DNA of 44,802 nt, taken from the NCBI GenBank assembly GCA_019359115.1, contig JAHHHW010000114.1, positions 1 to 44,802 of the forward strand, written 5' to 3'. The notes beneath the pieces were generated by a model that searched no databases, was not told the DNA's origin, and saw nothing but the letters and a program-made list of their open reading frames with translations. Shown here piece after piece: positions 12,199-31,413 of the stretch (positions within the stretch are counted from its first letter, which is position 1; each line of letters begins with the position of its first letter). Source of the stretch: Pelatocladus maniniholoensis HA4357-MV3 (GTDB lineage: Bacteria > Cyanobacteriota > Cyanobacteriia > Cyanobacteriales > Nostocaceae). A program made the position numbers and the translations under genes.

Positions 12199-12297
12199 GG
12201 GCGACCCGGAGATTACGCCTACTGTAAGCATCCCGTGTTGCTGCTACCTTCCGGTCCTGACAAGATTTGGGCGTTACAGTCGCATAAGTCCAGGTCT
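12199..12297 (-). ncRNA. ffs: SRP RNA, small bacterial (4.5S) type
   Basis: The minus strand carries the universally conserved SRP domain IV sequence GGACCGGAAGGTAGCAGCAA, with a GGAA tetraloop and the asymmetric loops that bind Ffh. The ends pair: AGACCTGG at the 5' side (12297) with CCGGGTCGCCC at the 3' side (about 12199), giving a roughly 99-nt hairpin. Exact ends are approximate. It sits between the YciI gene and the phasin-like gene, all on the minus strand. Confidence 0.95.
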
Positions 12298-20798: not shown

Positions 20799-21612
20799 GT
20801 TTATGCTTGATGTACTTGACCAACGAAGCTTTTAAATATCTGTTTGAGGACACCAGAGGGCGAGAGCAATGGAGATGCGATCGCCTTTCTCTATTAATAT
20901 TTCATCTCATTCAATGGGACATGTGAAGAATTTATCTCATATTTTTGATGAGATTTACTTATCAAAGAAAATTTTATTTTTGTGATGTATAAAATTTGAA
21001 TTTTAATTGGCAATTATCAGCCTACGCATAAGCCATTTGACTTATGCATAATAACATCATGGTTTAACTTTATATCAGCTAAATTTAGGTATTTCAATAT
21101 CCGGATTTGTTTTATAAATTTTGTAGAGAATGAATACAGAACAATCCATATGCTAAAAATCATCAAGAATAGGTTATCAGTTTATGAAAAATAGTATGAT
21201 TTGAATTGTGTTAATTTTAAAGCCAGTATTTTTAACATAAAAAGATAGTTTGTTTTTTCACTTTTTGAACAAGTATTACTAATATGATTGGATAAAAAAG
21301 ATCAGGAACAGGTATAAAAAGCATAGATGATGCAAAACTTAAATATTCATTATCAATCTGCTAAAAAGCCTTACAGATAGTATCCAAAGCTATTTTTGTC
21401 TAAATACAACAAAATATAAAGACAAGAAAAATGATACAAAAATACTGTTTAAAAAAACACAATAGATAAAACAGTCAATATGATCTATTTATTACATGAT
21501 CTTCTGTAACTAATCATCACACTTGAGATGAATATCAAAAAATGCAGTTGTTAATCTTGAATTAACTATTTTTTGAAACAATGAACACCAAGTATAGATA
21601 AGAGAAATAACA
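20799..21612 (+). other. Long AT-rich region upstream of patS
   Basis: About 810 bp without a gene of detectable size. It holds a weak hairpin after the GTPase gene (ATCTCAT/ATGAGAT, 20934-20954), another at 21026-21047 (GCATAAG/CTTATGC), and a TCCGGA promoter-like element at 21100. The GC content falls sharply after about 20900. The length and base composition suit a regulatory region with a long untranslated leader for the small gene at 21613. Confidence 0.6.
21100..21129 (+). promoter_or_regulatory. Possible DIF+-type developmental promoter
   Basis: TCCGGA (21100-21105) is followed after 18 bases by TAGAGA (21124-21129). TCCGGA near -35 is the motif I recall for HetR-dependent, heterocyst-development promoters (DIF+ class) in Anabaena. 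It would start a transcript about 475 bases upstream of patS. The -10 match is imperfect, and no start site is known here. Confidence 0.4.
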
Positions 21613-21654
21613 ATGCTATTTGATCCTTCTAGTGAACGTGGTAGTGGTAGATAA
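21613..21654 (+). CDS. patS: PatS-like heterocyst inhibitor peptide (13 aa)
   Basis: ATG CTA TTT GAT CCT TCT AGT GAA CGT GGT AGT GGT AGA TAA encodes MLFDPSSERGSGR. The last six residues are identical to the C-terminus of Anabaena PatS ([17 protein letters not shown], where the RGSGR pentapeptide is the active signal). Thirteen residues also equals the length from the internal Met of Anabaena PatS. An in-frame TAG seven codons upstream fixes this ATG as the only start. An AGAGA about 8 bases upstream could serve as a weak ribosome site. The PatS-derived peptide is known to bind HetR and prevent neighbouring cells from differentiating. tsaE, called hetY in Anabaena and, as I recall, also next to patS there, lies 11 bases away on the opposite strand. 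Confidence 0.88.
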   Translation: MLFDPSSERGSGR

Positions 21655-21665
21655 ACAAATAGCCC

Positions 21666-22142
21666 TCAGCTACCAAGATAGTGTTTGAAAACAGCTAAAA
21701 TTTCTGCATTCATAACAAAATTATGGGAAGTAATCTCAACTTGACGATTTCCTTGATCTTCATGACTCAAATGCAGACTAAGATAACTATGTGGCTGATA
21801 GGACATTCTGTCCGCCCATTCGATCGCCACTATTCCCGGCGCAACTTCAAAACCTTCCCAATAGGTTTCTAAGTTTAAAGTTACTACTTCTTGCGGTTCA
21901 AGGCGATACAAATCCAAATGGTAGAGAGGAAGCCGCCCTGTGGTATATTCATTAATCAGAGTAAAAGTGGGACTGACAATCGGTTCGGTGATACCCAAAC
22001 CTTCACCAATACCTTGTACCAAAGTCGTTTTCCCAGCACCCAAATCACCTTCCAACAAAATGACACTATTAGCACTCAAGTATTTACCGAGAGTGACACC
22101 AAGCGATCGCGTCGCCTCTGCACCAGTGAGAAAAATTTTCAT
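21666..22142 (-). CDS. tsaE: tRNA threonylcarbamoyladenosine synthesis ATPase TsaE (HetY)
   Basis: A 158-residue P-loop ATPase of the TsaBDE machinery that makes t6A37 on ANN-reading tRNAs. The Walker A motif is EGDLGAGKTTLVQG (31-44), followed by SPTFTLINEY, LYHLDLYRL and VAIEWADR, all typical of YjeE/TsaE. The start MKIFLTGAEATR (22142) is preferred over a Met four codons upstream. In Anabaena the homologue is named HetY because altering its level affects heterocyst development. It is tail-to-tail with patS, 11 bases apart, with no terminator in between. Confidence 0.92.
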   Translation of the reverse strand: MKIFLTGAEATRSLGVTLGKYLSANSVILLEGDLGAGKTTLVQGIGEGLGITEPIVSPTFTLINEYTTGRLPLYHLDLYRLEPQEVVTLNLETYWEGFEVAPGIVAIEWADRMSYQPHSYLSLHLSHEDQGNRQVEITSHNFVMNAEILAVFKHYLGS

Positions 22143-22152
22143 AGCTGATATC

Positions 22153-22200
22153 ATGTCCGCTTGAACACTTAATATTATCCGTTAAGGTCGGTAATGAGTA
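22153..22200. repeat. TGTCCGCTTGAA dispersed repeat, copy 1
   Basis: TGTCCGCTTGAACAC..TATTATCC..GGTCGGTAATGAGTAATTG matches a second copy at 32611-32665 that has the same order of blocks (TGTCCGCTTGAATAC, TATTATCC, GTCGGTAATTGG). Only these two copies were seen in the window. Confidence 0.7.
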
Positions 22201-22365: not shown

Positions 22366-24660
22366 ATGCGAACATTAATTATTGATAACTATGACTCTTA
22401 TACCTTTAATCTGTACCAAATGATTGGGGAGGTAAATGGAGAATTGCCTCTGGTGATTCGTAATGATCAGCTTAACTGGGATGAAATTAAAGAGATTGCA
22501 TTTGACAATATTGTGATTTCTCCAGGGCCTGGTCGTCCAGAAAAATCAGCAGATTTTGGAGTTTGCCAACAAATAATTGAAAACGTGAATATCCCCTTAC
22601 TGGGAGTTTGTCTGGGACATCAAGGACTTGGCTATTTACATGGTGGTAGGGTGATTCATGCTCCGGAAGTTCGACATGGTAGAATCAGTAAAATATTTCA
22701 CAATGGTTCTGAATTGTTTCAAGGCATTCCCAATCAGTTTTCAGTGGTACGTTATCACTCTTTGTTAGTTGCTGATGAACTACCTGAATGTTTAGAAAAG
22801 ATTGCTTGGACTGAAGCAGGACTGGTGATGGGATTGCATCATCGGTATTTACCTTTTTGGGGTGTGCAGTTTCACCCAGAGTCTATCTGCACAGAATATG
22901 GGCAAAAATTGCTCGAAAACTTTAGAGATATAACGCTGCGATTTAAAGATCAACTGTTACAAAGTTCAGCAAAGAAGTATTTTACAAAATATAGATCTGT
23001 TAGTTCTGCTATAAATCATCCTGACCAAAAACAGTCCAAGAAGTTTCAATACGATTCGGATAAGACAAATCGATCTACATTAAACCCACCAGAGACGCGA
23101 TATATCGCGTCTCTACAATCCCAAAATTATAACGAAAAATCCTTAACCGAACCTTATTGCGAGAAGTTTGAACTATATACACGCAAGTTAAATATCTGCC
23201 CAGATACAGAAAAAATATTTATACATATTTTTCGGGATGCACCAAATGCCTTTTGGTTAGATAGTAGCCCTGTGGAACCCGGTTTATCTCGCTTTTCGTT
23301 TATGGGTGATGGGAGTGGGGCAAACAGTTTATTAGTACGATATTATACTCATGACCAAGAACTCACGATCGCCCAATCAGGTACGGTAATCCGTCGTAGC
23401 GAAAGTATTTTTAAATATCTCAAGCGAGAACTAGATTATCGGCGTTGTCAATCGGATGAACTACCTTTTGATTTTAACTGTGGGTTTATTGGCTATTTTG
23501 GCTATGAACTTAAGGTAGAGTGCGGATCGCAATTAGTGCATTCTTCTGTTTTACCTGATGCTATTTTTTTACTTGCCGATCGCATGATTGCGATCGATCA
23601 TCAACAACAGTGTCTTTATTTGCTGCAACTAGTCAAAAAAGGACAAACACAAGAGGTAGAAACGGCAAAAACTTGGTTTGACACTATCCAACAACAACTC
23701 GAAACCCTTGCTCCTCTCCCAAAGATTGTACACCAGAGAAATCAACAGCCAATTAAGTTTCATTTGCATCGCACTCACCAAACTTACATTCAAGATATTC
23801 ATCAATGCTTAGACGAAATTCATGAAGGAGAAACTTATCAAGTTTGTCTGACGAATCAGCTTCACACCGATGCGACTCCTGATCCATTGACTTTCTATCG
23901 CACATTACGTCAAATCAATCCTGCTCCCTACTCTGCATTTTTGCATTTTGGTGATCTTGCGATCGCCTGCTCATCTCCAGAACGGTTTTTAAAGATTGAT
24001 CGAAAAAAATGGATAGAAACTAAGCCCATAAAAGGAACGCTACCGCGAGGAAAAACCCCAGAAGAAGATTTTATCCTGCGCGAAAAATTACGCAACAGCG
24101 AAAAAGACCGGGCGGAAAATCTCATGATTGTGGATTTGTTACGCAATGATTTGGGACGAGTCTGTGAAGTTGGTAGTGTCCACGTACCAAAATTAATGGA
24201 TGTAGAAACCTATGCAACACTACATCAGTTGGTAACAACAGTACGGGGGCGGTTACGATCAGACTTACAAGCGGTGGATTGCATTCAGGCCTCATTTCCA
24301 GGAGGATCGATGACTGGCGCGCCCAAAATCCGCACCATACAAATTATTGATCGCTTAGAACAAGAGGCGCGAGGAGTGTATTCCGGAGCGATCGGCTTTT
24401 TGGGTTTGAATGGTTCGGCTGATTTGAATATTGTCATTCGGACTGCTGTTTTGACTCCTGATCAAACCTCTATCGGTATCGGTGGCGCAATTATAGCACT
24501 TTCTAATCCTGAGATGGAGTTTCAGGAAACGCTACTCAAAGCGAAAGCTTTAATCCAAGCTATGGTACTGACGATGCAGGGAACGTCTGAGCCAGATATG
24601 TATTCCATTCTAGGATTAGAAACAACAACTGCTGATATTTATGAAAAATTAATTGCATAA
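22366..24660 (+). CDS. pabB: Fused aminodeoxychorismate synthase PabA-PabB
   Basis: A 764-residue fusion. Residues 1-190 are a class I glutamine amidotransferase with LLGVCLGHQGL (nucleophile Cys82) and VQFHPES (His170, Glu172). A linker (about 195-265) leads to a chorismate-binding domain with DEIHEGETYQVCLTNQ, SSPERFL, TKPIKGTLPRG, DLLRNDLGRVC and FPGGSMTGAPKIRT. The Lys in PIKGT marks PabB rather than TrpE (PIAGT). The product, 4-amino-4-deoxychorismate, leads to p-aminobenzoate and folate. The domain order resembles plant and fungal ADC synthases. The linker carries codons from a palindromic repeat (see 23091). There is no lyase domain, so PabC must be elsewhere. Confidence 0.92.
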   Translation: MRTLIIDNYDSYTFNLYQMIGEVNGELPLVIRNDQLNWDEIKEIAFDNIVISPGPGRPEKSADFGVCQQIIENVNIPLLGVCLGHQGLGYLHGGRVIHAPEVRHGRISKIFHNGSELFQGIPNQFSVVRYHSLLVADELPECLEKIAWTEAGLVMGLHHRYLPFWGVQFHPESICTEYGQKLLENFRDITLRFKDQLLQSSAKKYFTKYRSVSSAINHPDQKQSKKFQYDSDKTNRSTLNPPETRYIASLQSQNYNEKSLTEPYCEKFELYTRKLNICPDTEKIFIHIFRDAPNAFWLDSSPVEPGLSRFSFMGDGSGANSLLVRYYTHDQELTIAQSGTVIRRSESIFKYLKRELDYRRCQSDELPFDFNCGFIGYFGYELKVECGSQLVHSSVLPDAIFLLADRMIAIDHQQQCLYLLQLVKKGQTQEVETAKTWFDTIQQQLETLAPLPKIVHQRNQQPIKFHLHRTHQTYIQDIHQCLDEIHEGETYQVCLTNQLHTDATPDPLTFYRTLRQINPAPYSAFLHFGDLAIACSSPERFLKIDRKKWIETKPIKGTLPRGKTPEEDFILREKLRNSEKDRAENLMIVDLLRNDLGRVCEVGSVHVPKLMDVETYATLHQLVTTVRGRLRSDLQAVDCIQASFPGGSMTGAPKIRTIQIIDRLEQEARGVYSGAIGFLGLNGSADLNIVIRTAVLTPDQTSIGIGGAIIALSNPEMEFQETLLKAKALIQAMVLTMQGTSEPDMYSILGLETTTADIYEKLIA
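23091..23114. repeat. 24-bp palindrome inside pabAB coding sequence
   Basis: AGAGACGCGATA followed by its exact complement, the GAGACGCG-type repeat frequent in Nostocales intergenic DNA. It reads in frame as PETRYIASL (about residues 242-250) in the linker between the two enzyme domains and keeps the frame open. Confidence 0.85.
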
Positions 24661-29976: not shown

Positions 29977-31413
29977 ATGCCAGTTGCAGCTAAATCAATT
30001 AAGTTTGGTACCGATGGCTGGCGCGGCGTGATTGGCGATGATTTCACTTTTGAACGTCTAGCCCTAGTTGCGCCAGTTGCCGCAAAAGTACTATTCAATA
30101 CCTACGGTAAAAAAGTCGGCGATCGCACAATTGTAGTCGGTTATGATCGCCGCTTTATGGCAGAAAACTTTGCCCAAAAAGTTGCTGATGTTGTCTCAGC
30201 AGCAGGGTTTGATGTTTTGTTTAGCGAAACCTTTGCACCAACGCCAGCTTTTAGCTGGGCTGCAAAGCAACACAATGCTTTGGGAGCGCTAGTGATTACT
30301 GCTAGTCACAATCCAGGACAATATTTGGGATTAAAAGTTAAAAGTGCTTTCGGTGGTTCTGTACCGCCAGAAGTAACCCAAGAAATAGAAGCGCTTTTAG
30401 AAGAGGAAGTACCAGTTGCCTCTACTCCAGGTAAGATAAAGCAATTCAATCCCTGGGAAAGCTATTGTCAAGAGCTAGAAAGTAAAGTTGATATAGGCAA
30501 AATTCGTGAAGCTATAGCCTCTGGAAAGCTGACAGTATTTGCTGATGTGATGCATGGTGCTGCTGCTGGTGGACTAGGAAAACTATTAGGCGATGCAGTT
30601 AAGGAAATCAATAGCGATCGCGATCCGACTTTTGAAGGTGGAGCGCCAGAACCTTTACCTAAATACCTTTCCCGTCTGTTCGGGGTAATGAAAACACACC
30701 GAGAACACAACCCTACAGGTTTAACAGTGGCGTTGGTGTTTGATGGTGACTGCGATCGCATCGCAGCTGTAGACGGTGCAGGCAATTTTTTGAGTTCGCA
30801 AATTCTCGTCCCAATTTTAATTGACCACTTGACCCTGCGACGCAATTTCACAGGAGAAATAGTCAAAACCGTGAGTGGTTCTGATTTAATTCCTCGTGTC
30901 GCAGCATTGCACAAACTGTCAGTATTTGAAACACCTGTTGGTTATAAGTACATTGCAGACAGAATGCTAGCAGCCCAAGTGTTACTGGGTGGGGAAGAAT
31001 CAGGAGGAATAGGTTACGGTAGCCATATTCCCGAACGTGATGCACTATTATCAGCATTATATGTACTCGAAGCGATCGTCGAATCAGGCTTAGATTTAAG
31101 CGATTATTACCGTCAATTGCAACAACAAACAGGCTTTAGTTCTGCATACGATCGCATTGACTTACCCCTAGGAAGTATGGAAGTGCGGAGTCGTCTTTTA
31201 CAACAATTGCAAACAGAACCATTAAAAGAAATCGCTGGAAAAACAGTCACAAATTGCCAAACAATAGATGGTTATAAATTCCGCCTAGCTGATGATAGTT
31301 GGTTGATGATTCGTTTTAGTGGTACAGAACCAGTTTTACGCCTCTACTGCGAAGCTTCAACCCTCGAACAAGTACATCAAACCTTAGCTTGGGCAAAACA
31401 TTGGGCAGAATAA
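29977..31413 (+). CDS. Phosphoglucomutase/phosphomannomutase family protein
   Basis: A 478-residue alpha-D-phosphohexomutase. The N-terminus KFGTDGWRGVIGDDF, the phosphoserine loop ITASHNPGQY (Ser110), the metal loop FDGDCDRIAAVD, the sugar loop GGEESGGIGYGSHIPERD and the phosphate site RFSGTEPVLRLY appear in the usual four-domain order. The exact sugar (glucose, mannose or glucosamine phosphate) cannot be decided from these motifs. It is followed by rdgB on the same strand after an STRR spacer. Confidence 0.9.
   Translation: MPVAAKSIKFGTDGWRGVIGDDFTFERLALVAPVAAKVLFNTYGKKVGDRTIVVGYDRRFMAENFAQKVADVVSAAGFDVLFSETFAPTPAFSWAAKQHNALGALVITASHNPGQYLGLKVKSAFGGSVPPEVTQEIEALLEEEVPVASTPGKIKQFNPWESYCQELESKVDIGKIREAIASGKLTVFADVMHGAAAGGLGKLLGDAVKEINSDRDPTFEGGAPEPLPKYLSRLFGVMKTHREHNPTGLTVALVFDGDCDRIAAVDGAGNFLSSQILVPILIDHLTLRRNFTGEIVKTVSGSDLIPRVAALHKLSVFETPVGYKYIADRMLAAQVLLGGEESGGIGYGSHIPERDALLSALYVLEAIVESGLDLSDYYRQLQQQTGFSSAYDRIDLPLGSMEVRSRLLQQLQTEPLKEIAGKTVTNCQTIDGYKFRLADDSWLMIRFSGTEPVLRLYCEASTLEQVHQTLAWAKHWAE

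Follow-up and report, generated by a model that had tools for sequence, protein, structure and literature searches.

The 13-codon open reading frame (ORF) described here is very probably the patS ortholog of a Fischerella-like heterocyst former, transcribed from a DIF1 promoter and encoding a peptide that inhibits HetR in neighboring cells. Orthology had been proposed in a preliminary description of the window, i.e., the whole 44,802-nt stretch of DNA that was analyzed, and is supported at the sequence level by the ORF itself, its conservation, its convergence with tsaE in a syntenic position, a DIF1 promoter motif and a HetR receptor with an intact binding pocket. Expression of the gene, and the processing, transport and HetR-inhibiting activity of its product, would follow by analogy with Anabaena. 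Coordinates of the features are collected in Table 1.

Table 1. Coordinates of patS, its predicted control elements and tsaE (window positions), and of three RGSGR minigenes elsewhere in the genome.
Feature	Position	Strand	Remarks
DIF1 motif TCCGGA, -35 element of heterocyst-specific promoter	21100..21105	+	513 nt upstream of ATG
Extended -10 element TGTAGAGAAT of DIF1 promoter	21122..21131	+	Same or similar element after TCCGGA in many listed loci, not all
Predicted 5' leader of patS transcript, ~476 nt	21137..21612	+	Start inferred from DIF1-to-tsp spacing of 35 bp
Inverted repeat GTTAAT-CTTGA-ATTAAC in leader	21550..21566	+	Before T-rich stretch; visible in seven aligned sequences of own genus (g1) and sister genus (g8)
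patS	21613..21654	+	13-codon ORF MLFDPSSERGSGR with C-terminal HetR-binding hexapeptide ERGSGR
tsaE	21666..22154	-	PF02367, E 5.6e-37; convergent with patS
Minigene C74 (L267)	G000:C74:6328-6425	-	MKFENDDRGSGR
Minigene C23 (L285)	G000:C23:1478-1650	+	MKFQAF...SDGRGSGR; frame continues past RGSGR
Minigene C147 (L417)	G000:C147:29202-29267 and just downstream	-	MNNNEGDRGSGRFNC

Translation of the window confirmed the ATG-to-TAA frame of 13 codons, which ends in ERGSGR directly before the stop. Since no ORF of at least 80 aa, the smallest size listed, lies in 20799-21665, the region is as empty as it had been described. A first-order Markov model of the window predicts 0.0001 occurrences of ERGSGR followed by a stop per window (both strands) and 0.015 per 6.7 Mb; one was observed in the window. 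The preliminary description had named lack of conservation in close relatives as evidence that would count against the gene. All four genomes of the genus carry the minigene beside tsaE, beginning with MLFDPSS (two genomes), MVFDPSS or MLYDPSS and each continuing with ERGSGR and a stop, and none of the four shows damage to the ORF, its start or stop, or the DIF1 motif. The last 24 nt of patS (AGTGAACGTGGTAGTGGTAGATAA) are invariant in all seven genomes aligned from the genus and the sister genus. Such retention bears on the possibility that patS is decayed or silent, its ORF persisting by descent while PatX and other RGSGR minigenes took over HetR inhibition. A sister-genus genome (G010, L103) has indeed lost the ATG frame, a one-base insertion after the start putting ERGSGR outside it, together with much of the leader, so that DIF1 lies ~142 nt upstream (the insertion could be an assembly error), and the window genome itself has further RGSGR genes, one of the PatX type and three minigenes. 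However, with every element intact in all four genus genomes and the end of the gene unchanged in all seven aligned ones, we consider decay improbable and retain the reading of an active patS.

The adjacency to tsaE that had been cited as context was borne out by the PF02367 match (Table 1). Since patS (+) faces tsaE (-), the two genes are convergent, and their stop codons are 11 nt apart. We take a TsaE of this kind to be the HetY of Anabaena. Beyond tsaE, a single 764-aa ORF (22366-24660, +) encodes a fused anthranilate synthase with glutamine amidotransferase and chorismate-binding domains. Rfam found only a bacterial small SRP RNA in the window (12200-12296, -; RF00169, 60.6 bits), and ARAGORN found nothing there.

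A search for small ERGSGR ORFs beside tsaE, which had been suggested as a check, was performed on a family sample of 145 genomes. tsaE was found in 143, and the stretch downstream of it was taken in all of them (maximum length 1.5 kb in 30 genomes and 2 kb in the other 113, among which two stretches fell short of 200 nt at contig ends). RG[STAG]G[RK] stands directly before a stop at 67/143 tsaE loci. When residues after the motif were allowed, a short ORF with RG[ST]GR was found at 88/143 loci, in 37 of 56 genera. Each of the 88 ORFs runs against tsaE, with no case on its strand; the opposite-strand counts for six scrambled pentapeptides were 0, 4, 1, 0, 0, and 2, and no scrambled version occurred on the tsaE strand. 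RGSGR has Glu immediately before it in 87 of the 88 and Met exactly eight residues ahead of it (the 13-codon position) in 64, with Leu at the following position in 59. The commonest family peptide likewise has 13 codons and starts with ML, e.g., MLVNFLDERGSGR, and aligns with the window peptide without gaps, the five middle residues differing. The N-terminus had been called unlike that of Anabaena; this holds for the middle five residues, but the peptide is less odd than claimed, an ML start and 13 codons being commonest in the family. Among named records, 13 of the 59 loci scanned (80 were returned, and the 21 left out were mostly from other phyla) have an ERGSGR that faces tsaE and ends no more than three residues from a stop, e.g., MLVNFLDERGSGR in Atlanticothrix and Dendronalium. 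No short RGSGR ORF occurs in the tsaE-flanking stretch of the other 55/143 family genomes, so that in many lineages patS is either dispensable, placed elsewhere or overlooked. In some of these 55 a DERGSGR ORF lies at another place, and both such loci read in genus g42 are preceded by TCCGGA.

The motif upstream of patS is consistent with a DIF1 promoter followed by a long leader. This promoter class is defined by DIF1 at -35 plus an extended -10 element, according to the portion of the source available to us (PMC6133370), and the part of a second source on which we draw places the DIF1 of Anabaena patS 35 bp upstream of a transcription start at -580 and describes expression as (pro)heterocyst-specific and hetZ-dependent (PMC7377430). 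TCCGGA is aligned in 7/7 genomes of the genus and sister genus. Across the family it occurs within 1 kb upstream of 48/88 patS loci, against a median of 5 for 180 permuted hexamers, and at 500-670 nt in 35 of those 48 (counted from the locus list); the exact hexamer is absent from the 1 kb upstream at 40/88. Counts near 48 were reached by CCGGAT (50) and ATCCGG (46), which are shifted registers of the same site, and by CGATCG (41), GCGATC (40), and GATCGC (38). Hexamers of the CGATCG type resemble the HIP1 repeat. The inverted repeat near the end of the leader was rejected as a general patS feature, GTTAA..TTAAC being found in the last 130 nt of 7/88 loci (6/684 control windows).

The predicted leader exceeds the ORF in length and contains conserved blocks of its own in the alignment of the two genera, where third codon positions in the last 24 nt of patS are also invariant; even so, a conserved non-coding RNA or leader with an incidental RGSGR frame is hardly credible, considering that across 37 genera Glu precedes RGSGR in nearly every ORF and Met keeps its place in most, while the codons of the motif vary between genera. 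The conserved object is thus best read as the coding sequence of PatS.

Loss of hetR from the genome had been named as a finding that would undermine the assignment; HetR (299 aa) is present. All six residues reported, in the available part of the source, to contact PatS6 or affect its binding (R223, E253, E254, D256, D270, and D278) are kept (PMC4649674). The protein is identical at 296/299 positions to the HetR of 3qod/4izz, and 4IZZ is Fischerella HetR according to the same partial source (PMC4649674), which makes the organism Fischerella-like. One nifH scored above the cut-off, a threshold also passed by 3/14 control genomes. A second nifH is split into G000:C89:7506-7637 and 30153-30851 (profile positions 1-44 and 41-273), the parts lying ~22.5 kb apart on the same contig and strand, which is suggestive of an interruption element. 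Judged from hetR, the nifH above cut-off and the near-Fischerella HetR, heterocyst formation by the host is very likely. The preliminary description had taken patS itself to mark a heterocyst former; that conclusion is very likely correct for this organism on the grounds just given, but patS alone is no proof. Both hetR and patS are reportedly widespread in filamentous non-heterocystous cyanobacteria, as Zhang is said to have found in 2009.

PatS is characteristically induced in proheterocysts; its overexpression suppresses heterocysts, and its deletion results in multiple contiguous ones. By the model that we favor, the DIF1 promoter probably drives patS in differentiating cells, through the ~476-nt leader, and the transcript would be translated into the 13-residue peptide, which would be trimmed to ERGSGR or RGSGR. 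The trimmed peptide would then move to neighboring cells, bind the hood domain of HetR and release HetR from DNA, and neighbors with blocked HetR would not differentiate. In the portion of the structural report available, PatS6 is described as held through its arginines, serine and main chain, and the side chain of the first residue as irrelevant (XRGSGR; PMC4649674), which would let DRGSGR bind too; the affinity reported there for PatS6 is 12 nM.

The genome also contains an ORF at G000:C105:47207 (L352; MRAAISLLVTG...PYRGSGRDRDRQ...) with a hydrophobic N-terminus and prolines before the motif; RGSGR is internal rather than C-terminal. We infer that this gene is of the PatX type from the published descriptions, as given in the accessible parts of two sources (PMC5812504, PMC12756182). 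The three other genomes of the genus have similar ORFs (L346, L347, and L349). As an ORF ending in RG[ST]GR at the stop, PatX was not found in the window genome, where only the C74 minigene and patS have such an end (nine pattern matches, of which eight were read and the ninth is patS); the PatX-type gene was found once RGSGR was allowed to be internal. The same pattern gave 43 matches in the three remaining genomes of the genus, some of which were assigned a locus. ORFs with three or four tandem DDRGSGR repeats (L279 in G096, L281 in G069, and L340 in G021; e.g., MIFLNDDRGSGRIQNMTFSDDRGSGRIQTIVSSDDRGSGRIRISAFFY) look like a putative multi-copy peptide precursor, an arrangement seen in genus g19; none of them strongly matched the leader model of the minigenes described below.

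The motif search of the window genome also found another minigene, MKFENDDRGSGR followed by a stop, between two ORFs that we take to be psbA-like and CheA-like. It is kept within a bounded block in 4/4 genus genomes. A 291-nt query around it matched 16/145 family genomes, often at two places each, and 24 of the 27 matched loci have a short ORF of the RG[STAG]G[RK] type; the three in which no such ORF was found (L278, L282, and L293) are all weak, short matches. These minigenes have a promoter-like leader (TCCTGTT, about 15-17 nt, TGTAGA), a Shine-Dalgarno-like AGGGAG and then the short ORF; the leader resembles the patS DIF1 promoter in spacing and extended -10 element but differs in the -35. 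A promoter pattern that excludes the RGSGR codons, TCCTGTTN{14,22}TGTAGAWRDAATT, gave 22 matches in 18/145 genomes (reversed control, 0), and a short RGSGR ORF follows 20 of the 22, both exceptions being in genus g31.

A leader sequence model built from 17 copies gave 72 matches at E <=1e-4 in 40/145 genomes and 16 genera, with RGSGR within 200 nt downstream in 72/72 (44 by coordinates, 17 by locus reading and 11 by fetched stretches). Since the 72 include the 17 training copies, and close relatives of the training genomes supplied many of the remaining 55, these matches are not independent. None of nine sampled weaker matches (E 4.7e-4 to 0.0036) has an RGSGR ORF downstream, an unrelated one being present on the opposite strand at L440; another weak match, that of G030 (5.6e-4), is followed by such an ORF. 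Among 27 of 28 leader-located copies compared (L432 was read separately), the last four RGSGR codons vary synonymously and the first is always CGC, leaving the peptide unchanged. Outside the family, three genomes of a class-wide sample of 291 were matched (1.4e-4 to 8.6e-4), none with RGSGR, in a search with fewer candidates scored for each genome, which may have overlooked weak copies. There are one to three copies per genome, and the window genome has three minigenes sharing this promoter/RBS-like leader (C74, C23, and C147; Table 1). The ORFs are 12 residues long in one copy of the window genome and longer elsewhere, with DRGSGR, GRGSGR, ERGSGR or NRGSGR. Genus g39, where the Anabaena-type PatS occurs, contains none of the 72 matches. 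Across the 143 genomes, patS at tsaE occurs together with the minigene family in 31, the family alone in 9, patS alone in 57 and neither in 46.

We think it somewhat likely that many heterocyst formers carry these minigenes, beside PatS and PatX, as additional HetR-inhibiting morphogens with a trigger unlike that of patS, and that heterocyst spacing depends on redundant peptides absent from the Anabaena-type genus. These findings suggest that, in many genera, other RGSGR genes may hide the effect of knocking out patS. The sources of RGSGR named in the available parts of the literature are PatS, 'alternative PatS', PatX, and HetN (PMC5812504, PMC12756182, PMC7761841), and a full-text search for DRGSGR found no paper. 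In that comparison, which leaves aside the PatX survey of Elhai and Khudyakov (2018), a work that may describe more RGSGR genes, the minigene family is apparently undescribed so far.

Published reports on patS in related strains are in conflict, as far as the accessible portions of two papers go: patS is reported as not found in Mastigocladus UU774, PCC 9339, and NIES-3754 (PMC9284123), whereas PatS-like sequences, mostly of 65-115 aa, are reported in most Section V strains (PMC5812504). Since a 13-codon ORF is easily missed, the claim of absence, as worded in that portion, deserves a check at tsaE. A defined patS, with promoter motif and receptor, is now given for a Fischerella-like lineage.

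We take the 17-residue sequence beside tsaE in one family genome (G138) to be that of Anabaena PatS, and alr2300, the neighbor of Anabaena patS, to be hetY. The window gene resembles patS of Anabaena sp. PCC 7120 (asl2301) in its ERGSGR C-terminus, its tiny ORF, a DIF1 motif several hundred nucleotides upstream and HetR as receptor. It differs in length, with 13 codons from the ATG against 17 in Anabaena (PMC5812504, in the part available), in its middle residues (FDPSS against VNFCD) and in the position of DIF1, which lies at -513 in the window, at -639 from the 13-codon start in G138 and at about -615 in Anabaena (PMC7377430, likewise in part). PatX, according to the accessible part of PMC12756182, is an exported small protein with a signal sequence, carries HRGTGR in Nostoc PCC 7120 and is cleaved by PatP, and its RG[ST]GR peptide binds HetR; the likeness to the window gene lies in that peptide, and the 13-residue ORF has no signal sequence before it. 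HetN has an RGSGR motif in some strains (PMC5812504) but is a protein of full size that carries the motif internally (PMC7761841), as far as the available parts of these sources describe it, in contrast to an ORF of 13 aa. That the window gene is of the PatX or HetN type, with which it has RGSGR in common, can be given practically no credence, as its ORF could accommodate neither a signal peptide nor a protein the size of HetN and the PatX-type gene of the genome is a separate locus; among the known systems, PatS is the one that it matches.
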